Positions 16 to 49,888 of a stretch of DNA of 64,000 bases are shown piece after piece. The position numbers were made by a program, and so were the translations under genes. The notes below the pieces were generated by a model that searched no databases, was not told where the DNA came from, and saw nothing but the letters and a program-made list of their open reading frames with translations. Positions within the stretch are counted from its first letter, which is position 1, and each line of letters begins with the position of its first letter. Source of the DNA: Granulicella sp. 5B5 (GTDB taxonomy: Bacteria > Acidobacteriota > Terriglobia > Terriglobales > Acidobacteriaceae). The stretch is from NCBI RefSeq assembly GCF_014083945.1, contig NZ_CP046444.1, positions 1,612,001 to 1,676,000 on the forward strand, written 5' to 3'.

Positions 16-1119
16 TCAGTTGGTTGCGGGAGTGAAGGCGCGGGGCCACCACAAGATGAAGGTGGTGCCTTCCGGGCCGGTAGAGGCGACGCGGATGTCT
101 CCGCCGTGGCGAGCGAGGATGTGGCGGGTGGCCCAAAGGCCGAGGCCGTTTCCCTGCTCGCCTTTGCTGGTGACGCCGAAGGTGAAGAGGCGGGTGAGGA
201 CTTCAGGGGGGATGCCCTGGCCCTCGTCGCAGACTTGAATTTCGACACCAGCGGGCGTGCCGGTGAAGGTGACGCGGATGGCGGCGTGTGGTTTTGCTAT
301 GGCTTCGCAGGCGTTGCGGATGAGGTTGAGCAGGACCTGACGGGGTTCGCCAGGTAGCGCCTGCACCGCGGTGTCGCCGGTGGCGACGAGTTCGAGATGT
401 ATGTCCTGGCGCTGCAGCAGGGTCAGCAGGAGAGCCCGGACGCTCTCGGCCGCGGCGAAGAGGTCAACGAGTTCGGGGTCCTTGCCCTGGCGGAAGAAAT
501 CGAGCGTGGAGCGGGAGATGGTGAGGATGCGTGTGGCTTCTTCGGCAGCTGTGGCGGCCCAGCCGGCAACATCCGAAGTGACATTGTGAGAGGTTTCGAT
601 GAGGAAGAGCAGATTCTGAATGGCCTCGAGCGGATTGGCGATCTCATGCGCGACGAGGGTGGACATGCGGCTCCACTCTTCGAGCTTCTGAGCGGCCATG
701 AGGCTTTCGCGCATCTGGCGCTGCTCCTGCTCGGTCGTGGTGAGGCGCTGGGCGTAATCGTTAATGCGGTCGCCCATGAGACGGACACGGCCGATGAGCG
801 CAAGCGCTATCCACGCGGAGAGGACTGCAGTAAGGATGTTGGCGGTCGCGTCGATCCAGAAGAAGGGTAGCCAGGTGGTGACGACCTCCATGAAGTGCGT
901 GGAACCACAAGCCACGATGAAGAGCGCAAAACCGACACCGAAGTAGGCCCAGTCGCGGGCGAGAGCCTGGCGCGTGCGGCGGACGAGAGAGAGAAGAGTG
1001 ATGCAAATGGAGAGATAGCTCAACGCCGTGATCGCGTTGGCGACCACCATGGTCCAGATAAGTTGGGGGTCTGCTCGCCAGCAGACGGCATGCGGCATGA
1101 GCGATATCGGCGACGACAT
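16..1119 (-). CDS. Sensor histidine kinase with ethylene-receptor-like N-terminal domain
   Basis: A 367-residue membrane kinase. Residues 20-110 form three hydrophobic helices. They match the copper-binding ethylene-sensor domain of plant ETR1 and cyanobacterial homologues: helix 1 carries ALSYLSI (ETR1 has ALAYFSI) and helix 2 carries C71-G-S-T-H75 (ETR1 has CGATH, whose Cys65 and His69 bind Cu(I)). The ETR1 Asp25 position is Asn28 here. A coiled linker (about 115-150) leads to a HisKA-like helix with phosphoacceptor H158 (HEIANP), an N box (NLIRNACEAI), DEGQGIP and GNGLGLW, so the kinase half is complete. No receiver domain is fused and no response regulator is adjacent. The ligand is inferred only; such domains in bacteria may bind ethylene, another small ligand, or nothing. 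It is divergently oriented to the glycosidase gene downstream. Confidence 0.9.
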   Translation of the reverse strand: MSSPISLMPHAVCWRADPQLIWTMVVANAITALSYLSICITLLSLVRRTRQALARDWAYFGVGFALFIVACGSTHFMEVVTTWLPFFWIDATANILTAVLSAWIALALIGRVRLMGDRINDYAQRLTTTEQEQRQMRESLMAAQKLEEWSRMSTLVAHEIANPLEAIQNLLFLIETSHNVTSDVAGWAATAAEEATRILTISRSTLDFFRQGKDPELVDLFAAAESVRALLLTLLQRQDIHLELVATGDTAVQALPGEPRQVLLNLIRNACEAIAKPHAAIRVTFTGTPAGVEIQVCDEGQGIPPEVLTRLFTFGVTSKGEQGNGLGLWATRHILARHGGDIRVASTGPEGTTFILWWPRAFTPATN

Positions 1120-1294
1120 CCGGGAGAAACCTCGGCAGGTTTGCGCTGCCAGCAGGAGCCCCTACGTGCGGACTCATGTATTGGATGAGCGGTTCGATGC
1201 GAGTTTAAATAAAAGCGTTGTCTAACAGGAAAAGGTATCACCGGTGACGCTGTGCCGAGTAGCTTTTGTTGAGCAAGTGCTGAAGAATGTTCCC

Positions 1295-2626
1295 ATGCAA
1301 CGGAGAGAGTTTTTGCGGATGGCGGGTCTAGCTGCAGCAGCGGCCAACGTGACACTAACGAGCTGGGCCAAAGAGCCGTATCCTCGGTTTCCGGACAGCG
1401 GCCCACATTGGAGGAGCACCTGGGATGCGGCACTGACGGTGCTGGCGGGGAATGTGAAGAAGGTGCCCAGGTACGACCGGCCCATGCTGATGGAAGGCGC
1501 GGTGTATCCGGGCGTGTGGATGGAGTGTGGGCCGCAGGAGGCATTGGTGTATGCGGGTCTGCGGAGGTTTGTGCCTCAGCATGAAGGCCAGTCGAGTCCG
1601 CTAGAGGTTGCGCGGGCAAATCACATGGCATTCTTTGCATTGCAGCGCGAGGACGGCCAGCTGCCGGCGAGCATCAAGGTGAGCGGCGAGGTGGGATATG
1701 GACAGATCCAGATGGTGGTGCCGATCGCGGCGACGGCTTGGGAGCTGGTGCAGCTGACACATGATGAAGAGCTGCTGACGACAGCGTACGAGGCCTGCGG
1801 GAAGTGGGATGCGTGGCTGCGGCGCTATCGGGACACGCGGAAGACAGGGTTGGTTGAGGGCTTTTGCACGTATGACACGGGGCATGACAACAGCCCACGG
1901 TGGAAGGGCATTCCGAACCGCTGTCCCGACGCGGACGCGAGGAAGTGTCCGCCGATTGTGACGATGCCGCGGCTGTGCCCGGACCTTTCCGCAACGGTGT
2001 ACGGCGGGCGTGTGGCGCTGGCCGCGATGGCGAAGGCGCTGCACAAGCACGATGAGGCGGCGCGCTGGGCGGAAGACGCCGAGACGATCCGAAGACTGAT
2101 CATCGAGAAGCTGTATGACCCGGAAGACGCCGCGTTTTATGACCTGGACGCGGAGAACCACTTTGTACGGGTGCGCGGCGACGTGATCACGCGCGTGATG
2201 GGCGAGCATGTGCTGAAGCTGAAGATACCCCGCGACCGCAAGATCTTCGACGATGTGTGGGTGCAGCAGCTACACAATCCGAAGGCGTTCTGGACACCGT
2301 ATTCGTTTCCTTCGATCGCGATTGACGACCCGAGTTTTGTACGCCCGATTCCGCGCAATAGCTGGGGCGGGGCGACGCAGGCACTGACTGCACTACGCAC
2401 GCCGCGCTGGATGGCCCACTACGGTAAAGAGGCAGAGTTGCGTGAGCTGATGCACGCATGGGTGACTGCGATTGCGAGATCCGGCACCGATGGTGGGCCG
2501 GGGGAGTTTCGGCAACAGATGGACCCGATGACCGGGGAGTTTACACGGGCCGATCCGAGTGGGTACTCGCCCGCAGCGCTGGTGTACTTGGAGTTCGTAA
2601 GGCGACTTGGAAGTTACCAAAGATGA
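1295..2626 (+). CDS. Tat-exported six-hairpin (alpha/alpha)6 glycoside hydrolase, GH63/MGH-like
   Basis: About 443 residues. The start is placed at the ATG beginning MQRREFLRMAG, because this gives a twin-arginine signal (RR-E-F-L-R followed by an Ala-rich hydrophobic stretch ending near TSWA); a longer frame upstream has no better start. The mature protein has the layout of an alpha/alpha-barrel glycosidase: repeated amphipathic helices, RANHMAFFALQREDGQLP near the N-terminus, a YDTGHDNSPRW segment, and the C-terminal RNSWGGATQ and SGYSPAALVYLEFVRR motifs of the GH63/mannosylglycerate-hydrolase-like family. Export suggests action on oligosaccharides outside the cytoplasm. The substrate cannot be told from sequence. 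Four Cys lie around the NRCPDADARKCPPI region and could form disulfides. Confidence 0.75.
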   Translation: MQRREFLRMAGLAAAAANVTLTSWAKEPYPRFPDSGPHWRSTWDAALTVLAGNVKKVPRYDRPMLMEGAVYPGVWMECGPQEALVYAGLRRFVPQHEGQSSPLEVARANHMAFFALQREDGQLPASIKVSGEVGYGQIQMVVPIAATAWELVQLTHDEELLTTAYEACGKWDAWLRRYRDTRKTGLVEGFCTYDTGHDNSPRWKGIPNRCPDADARKCPPIVTMPRLCPDLSATVYGGRVALAAMAKALHKHDEAARWAEDAETIRRLIIEKLYDPEDAAFYDLDAENHFVRVRGDVITRVMGEHVLKLKIPRDRKIFDDVWVQQLHNPKAFWTPYSFPSIAIDDPSFVRPIPRNSWGGATQALTALRTPRWMAHYGKEAELRELMHAWVTAIARSGTDGGPGEFRQQMDPMTGEFTRADPSGYSPAALVYLEFVRRLGSYQR

Positions 2627-3722: not shown

Positions 3723-4106
3723 ATGACGAGAAACGTATCCGCTGTGGGAGAGAAGCCTCTGTATTGGGTTGGCTCCTCTAAGAAAGACCTGATGAAATTC
3801 CCTGAGATGGTACAGACGCATCTCGGTGTGGCGCTGGGAGTGGCACAGTTTGGCGGCAAGCATCCTGATGCGAAGCCCTGGAAGGGCGATGGGCCGGGCG
3901 TGCTGGAGATTGTAGAAGACCATCGCGGTGATACGTTTCGCGCGGTCTATACGGTCCGCTTTGAAGGTGCTGTGTATGTGCTGCACACGTTTCAGAAGAA
4001 GTCGAAGAGTGGCATCAAGACGTCCAAGGCTGACCAGGACTTGATCGCGGCGCGGCTCAGGGACGCGCAGCAGGATTATGAGGTGCGATATGGCAAAGAC
4101 AAGTAA
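3723..4106 (+). CDS. RelE/HigB-superfamily toxin (phage Gp49-like)
   Basis: 127 residues from the ATG at 3723. The core reads KPLYWVGSSKKDLMKFPE, then VLEIVEDHRGDTFRAVYTVRF, then VYVLHTFQKKSKSGIKT. These are hallmarks of the Gp49/HigB-like branch of RelE/ParE toxins, which are mRNA interferases acting on translating ribosomes. The antitoxin gene overlaps its 3' end by 17 bp, the usual toxin-first order of this branch. No good ribosome-binding site is seen. The key basic residues of the fold (FRAVY, KKS) are present, so it looks intact. Confidence 0.85.
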   Translation: MTRNVSAVGEKPLYWVGSSKKDLMKFPEMVQTHLGVALGVAQFGGKHPDAKPWKGDGPGVLEIVEDHRGDTFRAVYTVRFEGAVYVLHTFQKKSKSGIKTSKADQDLIAARLRDAQQDYEVRYGKDK

Positions 4107-4425
4107 AGCGGTTGTAGAGGCGAGTTCCGGAAATGTGTTTGCCGATCTGGGATTGGCGGACGCTGAAGAGCTGGGGACGAAGCTGCGGCTGTGCGTGGTG
4201 GTGAACCGGATTCTGGAGGCACGTGGGCTTACGCAGGTGGAGGCCTCTCAGGTACTGGGCGTGACTCAACCGAAGGTGTCTGCACTGAAAGCGTACAAGC
4301 TGGAAGGGTTCTCGGTCGAGCGACTGATGCACTTTGTCACGGCGCTGGAGCATGATGTAGTGATCGAGATTCGGCCGAAGGTGAAGAAGGGTGAGGCGAA
4401 GGTGATGGTGGTGAGCGCGGCTTAG
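4090..4425 (+). CDS. XRE-family HTH antitoxin partner
   Basis: 111 residues from the ATG at 4090, which has gagg about 6 nt upstream; an in-frame ATG at 4078 is too close to that site. A single helix-turn-helix (LTQVEASQVLGVTQPKVSAL) follows an acidic N-terminal segment. The C-terminal part (ERLMHFVTALEHDVVIEIRPK) is typical of HTH antitoxins paired with Gp49-like toxins. It should neutralise the upstream toxin and repress the shared promoter. Confidence 0.87.
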   Translation: MAKTSKAVVEASSGNVFADLGLADAEELGTKLRLCVVVNRILEARGLTQVEASQVLGVTQPKVSALKAYKLEGFSVERLMHFVTALEHDVVIEIRPKVKKGEAKVMVVSAA

Positions 4426-23410: not shown

Positions 23411-24843
23411 ACTTGTTGTTCGCAAAACAGATTCGCAGCCGACTTACCGTTTGGTACATAGCCGTTTTAGCGATGATTCTCGCGGTGTACATCGTGCTCG
23501 TCTTCGCATTTCAGTACAAATTCGTGAGTAATCAGATCTATCACGATGAAGTCCAGGATGTTGAGACAGTCGAGGGGCTCTTGTACTTTGATCAAAGTGG
23601 CACCTTGAAACTTCGGCAGAACTATTTCAGCCACCCCAAATCACATTTGCTGATCGATCGGCTGATGGAGGTTCGCGATCTTTCGGGCGTTGTACTGTAC
23701 AGGACGCCAACGCTCAATGGAGCGCCACTTGGCGGAGCCTCTCTTCCGGACGAAGGAAACGAAGGTTTCAATCGACGCATTATCAAAATGCCCGATGGGA
23801 CACATGTCTTCTTGATCAGTCATCTACACACGATGCAAGGCCGTGTGCTTCTTATTCGCCTCGGCTATAGTCTTGCTCCGTTCCATGAACGAATGGCTCA
23901 GTTCTTTGAGATTCTTTTGATTGCGTTACCTGTAGTTCTCGTGTTCGCCGGATTCGCGGGCTATCAGATAGCCAAGCGTGCGCTGGAGCCATTGGAGGAG
24001 ATGGCCCAGAAGGCGCAGCGGATCACCGCGCAGAATCTCCATGACAGATTGGATATTGAGAACCCCGACGACGAATTGGGACACATGGCCGTGGTCTTCA
24101 ACGACCTATTGAATCGCCTGGAGCGTGCATTCCAGCAGTTGAGCAGCTTTACCGCCGACGCCGCTCACGAGCTACGAGCGCCCATGGCAGCGATGCGTGC
24201 CCTTGGAGAAGTTGCACTTCGGCATCAAAATGGTACCGACAACGACAAAGAAGTTATTGCAAGCATCCTCGAAGAAACTTCCCGGCTCGAAGAGACGATC
24301 AACGGCTTACTTTTGTTGGCAAAAGCGGAAGCAGCACAGGCTGTAGGCCCGAATACCTTCTCTCTCGTAGAGGTCATCAATGAGGTATCGACCCTGCTTG
24401 AAGTACTTGCCGAGGAGCATGGGACCCAATTGATAATGCAGGTTGATACTTCAGACGCGTTCTCCGTTACGGGAGACAGAAGCTTAATACGAAGCGCCAT
24501 CATGAATGTCGTTCACAACGCGATCAAATTCTCCCCGGCGGATTCGATTGTGACAGTGACGTATTCGATCAACCAATCGCAAAGCACGTTTGTCGAAATG
24601 ACAGTGACCGACCAAGGACCAGGTATCGAGTCCTCTGAGGGCGAGTTAGTATTTGATCGGTTTTATACCAGTACACGGCGCGAAACTTTACCGAACAAGG
24701 GCACTGGCCTGGGGCTTTCGATTGCAAAGCTCGTGATTGAACGTTCGGGTGGAGAGATTTACTTCGACCACACGGTTTCAGTGGGGACTCGCTGCATCCT
24801 GAAACTTCCCGCACACCCCATATTGCGGTCGGAATCTATATGA
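23407..24843 (+). CDS. Sensor histidine kinase paired with the preceding regulator (CusS-like layout)
   Basis: 478 residues. TM1 (about 14-36), a periplasmic sensor of about 130 residues, TM2 (about 168-187), HAMP (about 188-240), HisKA with H254 (ADAAHELRAPMAAMR), then an ATPase domain with an N box (NVVHNAIKFSP), DQGPGI and GTGLGLSIAKLV. The layout matches CusS/heavy-metal-type kinases of efflux systems. The sensor domain lacks an obvious His/Cys/Met cluster, so metal sensing is not supported by the sequence alone. ATG overlaps the regulator stop codon. Confidence 0.94.
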   Translation: MNLLFAKQIRSRLTVWYIAVLAMILAVYIVLVFAFQYKFVSNQIYHDEVQDVETVEGLLYFDQSGTLKLRQNYFSHPKSHLLIDRLMEVRDLSGVVLYRTPTLNGAPLGGASLPDEGNEGFNRRIIKMPDGTHVFLISHLHTMQGRVLLIRLGYSLAPFHERMAQFFEILLIALPVVLVFAGFAGYQIAKRALEPLEEMAQKAQRITAQNLHDRLDIENPDDELGHMAVVFNDLLNRLERAFQQLSSFTADAAHELRAPMAAMRALGEVALRHQNGTDNDKEVIASILEETSRLEETINGLLLLAKAEAAQAVGPNTFSLVEVINEVSTLLEVLAEEHGTQLIMQVDTSDAFSVTGDRSLIRSAIMNVVHNAIKFSPADSIVTVTYSINQSQSTFVEMTVTDQGPGIESSEGELVFDRFYTSTRRETLPNKGTGLGLSIAKLVIERSGGEIYFDHTVSVGTRCILKLPAHPILRSESI

Positions 24844-48337: not shown

Positions 48338-49888
48338 CTAAGAGATGATGGGGTCGGCAGCGGGGGCGGAGACGACCGGGAGCGTGATGCGAATGGCGGT
48401 GCCGTGGCGGTCGTGGCCGGTAGAGCTGCGGAGCTGGAGCCTGCCGCGCTGCTCTTCGACCATGCCGCGGGTAACCCAGAGGCCGAGGCCGGTGCCGCGC
48501 TCACCCTTGGTGGTGAAGAAAGGCTCGAAGACGCAGGCGAGGTTGGCGGCGTCGATGCCGTGGCCGTTGTCGGCGATGAGGACGGAGACGGTGTCGGCGA
48601 GTACGCGGGCGCGGATGTGGACCTGGCCGCCGGCGGTGCTCATGGCCTCCAGCGCGTTGGCGACGAGGTTGGCGAAGACCTGACGGAGGCTGGGGTCGTA
48701 GTGCACGGACTCGATGCCGGGAGCGTAGCGGGTGTGCAGGGTGACGTGGTGTTGGGCGGCGCGGGTGGCGAAGAGCTGTACGACCTCGTCGAGCATGGCG
48801 CGGAGGTTGAGGGTGCGGCCGGGGACCTTGCGGTAGAAGCTGAGCGTGGAGCGGGTGATGTGGCCGACTCGCTCGAGCTCGCGGGCGCCGATGGCGAGCA
48901 GCTCCTGTGCCTGCGGGGTGAGCGGCTGGTCCTGCAGGAGGAAGAAGATGTTGGTGAGGGCCTCGAGCGGGTTGTTGATCTCGTGCGCGAGGGTGTTGGC
49001 CATACGGCCGGCGGCGGCGAGGCGCTCGGAGTTGATGAGCCGCTGCATGAGGTCCGCAGTTTCCTGCTCGGCGACCTTGCGGGCGGAGATGTCTTCGACG
49101 ACCCATAGGACGGTGGTAGTGGGGACGCCGGGGATGTCGCCGTCGTGAACGAGCATGGAGACGGTAAGCTGCGCGGGGAGCGTGCTGCCGTCGGAGCAGA
49201 CAATGGTGCGTTCGACACGGTAGCCGCTGCGTTTGCCTGCGAGGAGCTCGGCGTAGAGCTCCTCGTCGATGGCGTCCTCCTCGGGCATAAGGAAGGCGCG
49301 CAGGCGCATGGTGAGCAACTCGTCAAGAGAGGCGTTGAGGCACTCGGCAAGACGCTGGTTGACGAGGATAAAGCGGCCGTCGGGAGCGGTGTGGGCCATG
49401 CCGACGGCGGCCTGATTGAAGGTGGCGGAGAAGCGCCGCTGGGCGAGACGAAGTTCGGCTTCGGTGCGGACACGCTCGTGGCGACGCTCGGCGTCGGCGA
49501 GCTCGCGCTCGATGGCGGGTAGAAGGCGATCGATGTGGCCCTTGAGGACATAGTCGTGCGCGCCGGCGCGCATGGCACTGACGGCGGAGACCTCGTCGAT
49601 GGTGCCCGAGACGATGATGAAGGGGATGTCGGCGCCGCGCTTCTGGATGATGCTGAGGGCGTCGCGGGCACCGAAGCTGGGCAGCGTGTAATCGGCCAGC
49701 GCGAGGTCCCAGGGAGCGGGCTCATCGAGCGCAGCACGCAGCTCGTCGGCCGTCTCGATGCGACGGGAGTCGACATCGTAGCCAGCGCGGGCGAGGTGGC
49801 GGAGAAGCAGGATTGCGTCCTCCTCGTAATCTTCGATGACGAGGACGCGCAGGGGCCTGAGGTTCGGATTTAGATCGCCGGTGGGCAT
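48338..49888 (-). CDS. Receiver-PAS-histidine kinase hybrid
   Basis: 516 residues. An N-terminal receiver (about 12-130) has D66 (LALADYTLPSF) as phosphoacceptor. A PAS domain (about 148-270) contains FNQAAVGMAHTAPDGRFILVNQRL. The kinase part has H302 (NTLAHEINNPLEALTNIFFLL), an N box (NLVANALEAM), DNGHGI and GTGLGLWVT. No membrane helices: a cytoplasmic relay protein that may be phosphorylated at its receiver and in turn act as kinase. It overlaps the single-domain regulator upstream by 19 bp. The kinase half is related to that of the ethylene-like kinase at 16-1119. Confidence 0.93.
   Translation of the reverse strand: MPTGDLNPNLRPLRVLVIEDYEEDAILLLRHLARAGYDVDSRRIETADELRAALDEPAPWDLALADYTLPSFGARDALSIIQKRGADIPFIIVSGTIDEVSAVSAMRAGAHDYVLKGHIDRLLPAIERELADAERRHERVRTEAELRLAQRRFSATFNQAAVGMAHTAPDGRFILVNQRLAECLNASLDELLTMRLRAFLMPEEDAIDEELYAELLAGKRSGYRVERTIVCSDGSTLPAQLTVSMLVHDGDIPGVPTTTVLWVVEDISARKVAEQETADLMQRLINSERLAAAGRMANTLAHEINNPLEALTNIFFLLQDQPLTPQAQELLAIGARELERVGHITRSTLSFYRKVPGRTLNLRAMLDEVVQLFATRAAQHHVTLHTRYAPGIESVHYDPSLRQVFANLVANALEAMSTAGGQVHIRARVLADTVSVLIADNGHGIDAANLACVFEPFFTTKGERGTGLGLWVTRGMVEEQRGRLQLRSSTGHDRHGTAIRITLPVVSAPAADPIIS

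Follow-up and report, generated by a model that had tools for sequence, protein, structure and literature searches.

Identification of the receptor kinase gene

The DNA analysed here, a stretch of 64,000 nucleotides from Granulicella sp. 5B5 (the window), begins with a gene that raises the question whether a bacterial protein with the sensor domain of the plant ethylene receptor ETR1, and with asparagine at the position of the ETR1 residue Asp25, is a copper-dependent gas receptor and, if so, of what kind. A first-pass annotation had described its product as an ethylene-receptor-like sensor on a bacterial histidine kinase. The gene occupies positions 16 to 1119 on the reverse strand, is complete from its ATG start to its stop codon, and encodes an ETR1-type sensor histidine kinase of 367 amino acids. 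Its start codon is backed by an orthologue from the same genus that has a methionine at the same place in the alignment. The profile search that the annotation had called for located the ETR1_N transmembrane sensor domain (Pfam PF25487, E=1.6e-21) at residues 20-110 (790..1062, reverse strand) with a score of 76.8 bits, far above the cut-off of 27. When the search was extended to the complete 3.93 Mb genome, the protein (79.7 bits) was the only ETR1_N match.

The remainder of the protein consists of kinase domains. A HisKA dimerisation and phosphoacceptor region spans residues 150-211 (487..672, reverse strand; PF00512, E=1.2e-5), with a score of 25.7 bits that is slightly under the cut-off of 26.9, and is followed by a HATPase_c catalytic domain at residues 259-360 (40..345, reverse strand; PF02518, E=9.3e-21). 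The candidate phosphorylated histidine, His158, lies within the HEIANP motif of HisKA and was invariant in 9/9 aligned sequences. The protein combines a HisKA region that bears the candidate phospho-histidine with HATPase_c, as is characteristic of two-component sensor histidine kinases, and Pfam gave no match to a GAF, PAS or receiver domain at E values up to 1. The three-helix N-terminus of the annotation was recovered in an AlphaFold model built from 33 input sequences (mean pLDDT 80.2, pTM 0.53), which predicted helices at residues 18-48, 58-83 and 87-176. Confidence in the sensor part was moderate, with ten-residue pLDDT means of ~64-79 for residues 11 to 110, and the model fits an arrangement of three membrane helices in which the last would continue into the kinase. 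PDB sequences gave no match to the first 110 residues at E values up to 10, and none of the best 60 of 82 PDB profile matches began before profile position 104, which places them in the kinase or immediately ahead of it. The best 25 of 69 NCBIfam matches also fell mostly in the kinase part, with scores far under their cut-offs.

Residues of the putative ethylene-binding site

For the comparison of single residues we used an AtETR1 reference sequence with D, Y, I, P, I, C, H, K and S at positions 25, 32, 35, 36, 62, 65, 69, 91 and 98. At these nine positions the window protein has N, Y, I, C, I, C, H, N and S in the alignment, with the equivalences N28=D25, Y35=Y32, I38=I35, C39=P36, I68=I62, C71=C65, H75=H69, N94=K91 and S101=S98. 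Three of the nine are altered, namely Asn28 (codon at 1036..1038), Cys39 (1003..1005) and Asn94 (838..840), and six are kept (all codons on the reverse strand). The motifs are A32-LSYLSI-C39 and C71-GST-H75, and the reading frame, both motifs and the residues Asn28, Cys39, Cys71 and His75 were as the annotation had given them. The positions of the ETR1 Cu(I) ligands Cys65 and His69 are both occupied, by Cys71 and His75 (codons 71-75 at 895..909, reverse strand). Seven residues are needed for ethylene binding by AtETR1 (D25, Y32, I35, P36, I62, C65 and H69); five of these are kept, while D25 has become Asn28 and P36 has become Cys39. Lys91, the proposed bridge partner of Asp25 and a residue expected in a functional ethylene receptor, is Asn94 in the window protein. 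This last change was absent from the annotation, and we consider it more telling than the change from proline to cysteine.

The Pro36-to-Cys39 change, which the annotation had noted, is real but carries little weight. Position 36 of the 131 ligand-keeping Asp25 domains in the survey described below is Pro in 90, Ser in 18, Ala in 18, Phe in four and Gly in one. Since proline is so often replaced in these bacterial domains (absent in 41/131), the change can be regarded as ordinary variation in bacteria. We also judged it unlikely that Cys39 serves as a further ligand for copper, because the site is variable and is Cys in only 14/16 sequences of the clade to which the window protein belongs.

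How the altered residues should be read depends on what is known of ETR1 itself. The ETR1 Asp25Asn mutant (Azhar 2023, Aman 2025) resembles the window protein in having Asn at the Asp25 position with the copper ligands kept, and it is taken to keep Lys91. The window protein differs from this mutant in that Lys91 is also replaced by Asn, and in being a natural form that is kept across a clade. The abstract of Azhar 2023 reportedly states that Asn variants exist. Asn at position 25 is an already known kind of variant, and the Asn/Asn pair found here is natural and clade-wide. According to the accessible sections of a 2026 review that cites Azhar 2023 and Aman 2025 (PMC13012798), Asp-to-Asn ETR1 still works with ~100-fold lower affinity, natural variants exist, and it is still unclear what underlies high-affinity ethylene binding and how the signal passes from copper to the kinase. 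Excerpts of a further study report that mutation of Asp25 abolished AtETR1 binding in an alanine scan in which seven residues were needed for binding, and that Lys91 is a proposed polar partner of Asp25 involved in output (PMC11819568). The copper site is given as Asp25, Cys65 and His69 in the available text of PMC12643061, and a simulation found only infrequent contact between Asp25 and copper (PMC6586836, in part). The 'changed metal chemistry' proposed in the annotation can be upheld only weakly on these grounds: Asp25 is counted in the copper site, but both metal ligands are kept and the Asp-to-Asn receptor is reported to work. In the excerpts of the literature that were searched, to which Azhar 2023, the likeliest place, did not belong, a paired Asn/Asn change at positions 25 and 91 is not mentioned.

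Conservation in the Acidobacteriaceae clade

Named genomes yielded 44 loci, 15 of which (L068-L082) matched the window protein nearly full-length at 53-79% identity. These orthologues come from Granulicella, Bryocella, Occallatibacter and other Acidobacteria. A survey of the genus found an orthologue (E<=1e-60) in 9/28 genomes, or in 9/19 when the same search was restricted to genomes that were >=90% complete and <=5% contaminated; some of the 15 orthologues are the same genes as in this survey. Of note, L072 and L078 derive from bins titled Rhodanobacteraceae, yet their orthologues fall inside the Acidobacteriaceae clade, and these bins are probably mislabelled.

The clade, counted as the window protein plus its 15 orthologues (n=16), is uniform at the key positions. 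Asn28, Tyr35, Ile68, Cys71, His75 and Ser101 are invariant (16/16), Ile38 and Asn94 are each found in 15/16 (with one Val and one Ser, respectively), and Cys39 in 14/16 (one Ala, one Ser). The ETR1_N match, together with the copper-ligand positions kept in 16/16, supports the annotation's description of the protein as a kinase with an ethylene-receptor-like sensor. As the annotation suggested, the protein may sense ethylene or a different small ligand. Mean pairwise identity within the clade was 0.70, 0.83 and 0.70 for helices 1, 2 and 3, and 0.56 and 0.52 for HisKA and the CA domain. Invariant key residues, and membrane helices that are more conserved than the kinase, suggest that selection acts on the sensor; better conservation than that of the kinase would not be expected for a sensor without a use. 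Judged from domains and residues, the window protein genuinely belongs to the ETR1-like sensor family and carries its sensor on a plain histidine kinase.

Pairing of positions 25 and 91

We then considered positions 25 and 91 across the domain family. Loci came from the family and phylum of the protein itself, from a family of cyanobacteria, from the class to which an Azospirillum belongs, from a verrucomicrobial phylum and from other sources. The domain HMM matched 210 ORFs, 12 of which were left out as partial or weak, and 169 distinct domains including AtETR1 were compared; this set favours the strongest matches of each search and is not a random sample. Cys65 and His69 were both kept in 150/169 domains. 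In these 150 the residues at positions 25 and 91 were D/K in 126, D/R in three, D/S in two, N/N in 18 and N/S in one. All 19/19 ligand-keeping domains with Asn25 have neither Lys nor Arg at position 91 (18 Asn, 1 Ser), and Lys or Arg is present at 91 in 129/131 ligand-keeping domains with Asp25 and absent in 2/131. An N/K pair did not occur among the 150. The 19/169 domains that do not keep both ligands had D/K in ten cases, N/K in two, and N/R, D/S, H/E, N/E, E/T, E/Q and D/E in one case each. By these alignments, Asn25 can occur together with Lys91, but in this sample it did so only in domains with an apparently broken copper site. The association of the two positions is strong (Fisher p=3.8e-22), although this figure ignores common descent and tree-based tests are fairer.

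The diverged ETR1_N-like domains without both copper ligands (L036, L037, L056, L058, L063-L067 and others) may sense something else. Some of the genomes with such a domain also carry a ligand-keeping copy (G066, G317 and G468).

Number of origins of the Asn/Asn pair

Descent was examined with a 151-row tree from a quick tree search and with 40-row trees, the rows of which were hand-picked out of the 169. In the 151-row tree 18/19 Asn-type sequences form one clade, and the Asn type needs two changes, forced by the starred branches. The branch that leads to the Asn clade is long (1.25-1.53 changes per column), and the clade of the window protein adjoins short Acidobacteriaceae proteins with Asp25, Phe36 and Lys91. 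These Phe36 proteins (L027, L029, L030 and L055) are, like the window protein, short, and are its nearest Asp/Lys-type relatives on the trees. They differ from it in keeping Asp25 and Lys91. L027, L029 and L030 also share a C-terminal kinase, as read by eye, whereas L055 (G461:C2:236832-237131) has a GGDEF-type end (GGEEF, by eye) in place of the kinase; this architecture of an Asp/Lys-type ETR1_N with a GGDEF-type domain suggests a putative gas sensor coupled to cyclic-di-GMP.

The second Asn case, L034 (genome G028), is a hybrid-type kinase that bears PAS (read by eye) and keeps Pro36. It shows the double change and lies within a group of Asp/Lys relatives, four of which (L245-L248) belong to the same genus as L034. 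Its terminal branch is long (0.72-0.87), and L034 may be drifting. When a single origin was imposed on the 40-row tree with the two trait columns included, it was not rejected (AU p=0.063); with these columns masked, which we consider the fairer test, it was rejected (AU p=0.025). The trees therefore favour two origins of the pairing of Asn25 with a non-Lys residue at 91, one in the Acidobacteriaceae clade and one in L034. Coupling of positions 25 and 91 appears likely from these alignments, with two events as its basis.

These two positions might instead be linked through an accident of single descent and not be coupled, a reading that is compatible with any of the alternatives weighed below and that we consider rather unlikely. 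It draws on the single clade that holds 18 of the 19 Asn-type sequences and on the test with trait columns included, but the same double change in L034 among Asp/Lys relatives and the outcome with masked columns speak against it.

Gene neighbourhood

We found no response regulator gene next to the kinase gene in the window genome, where the gene stands alone. It is divergent from a gene for an MGH1-like glycoside hydrolase (window 1244..2626, forward strand; Pfam) and faces, in convergent orientation, a gene for a dienelactone hydrolase (L112 7926-8930). A long downstream ORF on the same strand (L112 7812-9248) was considered as a response-regulator partner and rejected, having no Pfam match and lying opposite the dienelactone hydrolase gene. 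The hydrolases were likewise set aside as functional partners. Homologues occur in the flanks of 7/15 (dienelactone) and 3/15 (glycoside) orthologue loci, several of which end early at contig ends, and are not always adjacent, which looks like mere shared gene order.

A scan of ten neighbour ORFs in six of the 15 orthologue loci yielded one receiver domain. This is part of a PAS hybrid kinase in L077 (L077:7423-8994, forward strand), which is encoded on the same strand next downstream of the Asn-type kinase and could be the partner of the receptor kinase in that species. Other neighbours in the scan were a PadR regulator (L075) and a PAS histidine kinase on the opposite strand (L081).

In Granulicella aggregans (L079) a P-type ATPase gene (L079:3489-5804) lies directly upstream of the orthologue, on the same strand and at a distance of ~0.2 kb. 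The ATPase has YHS, HMBD and E1-E2 ATPase domains and a CPC motif, which together with its surroundings we take to mark Cu(I) pumps. Genome G468 has the same arrangement, with the ATPase at G468:C4:65893-68184 (L229). Such a location upstream of the receptor kinase would suit copper supply. This ATPase was detected beside no further ETR locus by tblastn at E<=1e-30 over 243 loci and the window, most loci from the genome search being covered for ~1.5 kb per side; in the flanks searched, the linked arrangement is confined to one sub-lineage. A copy of the ATPase with 73% identity lies ~2 Mb from the kinase gene in the window genome. Since related ATPases (E<=1e-40) were present in all 20 genomes checked, their mere presence is uninformative.

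Comparison with known ethylene receptors

The window protein shares with Arabidopsis ETR1 and other plant receptors the ETR1_N domain, the positions of Cys65/His69, Tyr32, Ile35, Ile62 and Ser98, and a histidine-kinase output. It differs from them in Asn28, Asn94 and Cys39, and in that neither a GAF nor a receiver domain was matched. Other bacterial members with an ETR1 sensor domain and a histidine kinase, Azospirillum brasilense AzoEtr1 and Synechocystis SynEtr1, are reported as ethylene receptors or binders (excerpts of PMC11819568 and PMC6682694). Both keep the seven binding residues, in contrast to 5/7 in the window protein, and a gene for a response regulator follows directly downstream of AzoEtr1 (PMC11819568), unlike at the window gene. 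A literature search that combined ethylene receptor and Acidobacteria returned no such receptor, as judged by titles and the openings of abstracts.

Interpretation

On balance, we slightly favour the view that the window protein acts as a receptor kinase of the ethylene type that depends on Cu(I), with gas binding that is weakened, retuned or faster-releasing and for which ethylene itself is a plausible ligand. The dimer would bind Cu(I) via Cys71 and His75, and the Cu(I) would in turn bind ethylene or another small unsaturated gas like it. With the uncharged Asn28/Asn94 in place of the proposed Asp-Lys bridge, affinity would be lower or release faster than in Asp/Lys receptors. Ligand binding would still shift helix 3 and so change the phosphorylation of His158, from which the phosphoryl signal would pass to a response regulator encoded elsewhere. 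Since the Asn clade lies on a long branch its ligand may have changed, which counts against this view. So do the loss of AtETR1 binding on mutation of Asp25 (PMC11819568), the single origin that is not rejected with trait columns included, the possible drift of L034, the restriction of the linked ATPase to one sub-lineage and the failure to find a response regulator gene next to the window gene.

The first of these objections leads to an alternative in which the clade has moved to another ligand, with Cu(I) still held and a pocket of Asn28, Asn94 and Cys39 that reads a different alkene, CO, cyanide or a thiol. The long branch, the many residues that are invariant within the clade and the change of three of nine key positions would fit such a shift, which we nevertheless hold to be unlikely: the window protein retains the other six key positions, as do 15 or 16 of the 16 clade members at each of them, and Asn alone is reported to preserve ethylene function in ETR1 (PMC13012798, accessible part). 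Less probable still is that the Cu(I) loading of Cys71/His75, and not a gas, sets the kinase output, making the protein a sensor of copper status. Its appeal comes from the CPC-motif ATPase directly upstream on the same strand in L079 and G468, and from the finding that Cu(I) alone rigidifies ETR1 through to its C-terminal part (PMC12643061, available text). An ethylene receptor, however, needs a copper ATPase equally, and the gene was not found in the window or in the other orthologue flanks, some of which are short. That the sensor domain binds no ligand at all and acts only as membrane anchor and dimeriser is, in our judgement, very improbable; domains that have lost one or both of Cys65 and His69 show that ETR1_N-like domains of this type exist (19/169), but within the clade both ligands are retained throughout and conservation is higher in the membrane part than in the kinase.

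Returning to the favoured view of a copper-dependent receptor with altered gas binding, we tentatively propose a wider reading, which we rate at a little under an even chance. The Asp25-Lys91 bridge would be a replaceable module that was swapped at least twice for uncharged Asn-Asn with the copper ligands kept, one form having become fixed in a clade of soil Acidobacteriaceae. These proteins would then form a separate class of copper-dependent gas receptors, of naturally low affinity or retuned, whose signal coupling does without the salt bridge. A natural clade with both bridge partners changed and the copper ligands intact offers material to separate the proposed jobs of the Asp, affinity and coupling. 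With this clade, the range of candidate ethylene sensing also comes to include Acidobacteriaceae such as Granulicella, Bryocella and Occallatibacter.

Additional observations

In plant receptors, N-terminal cysteines link the dimer. Just ahead of helix 1 we observed a P-H-x-x-C motif, in which, counted by column, Cys is present in 147/150, His in 132/150 and Pro in 136/150 ligand-keeping domains. In the window protein it corresponds to His-Ala-Val-Cys at residues 10-13 (window 1081-1092, reverse strand), at the same place as in related loci. The window contains two further histidine-kinase regions, at 24133-24810 (forward strand) and 48359-49078 (reverse strand), which were matched by the kinase part only. 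At 3723-4422 (forward strand), overlapping genes for a Gp49-like protein (PF05973) and an HTH_37 protein (PF13744) have the look of a HigB/HigA-type toxin-antitoxin pair.
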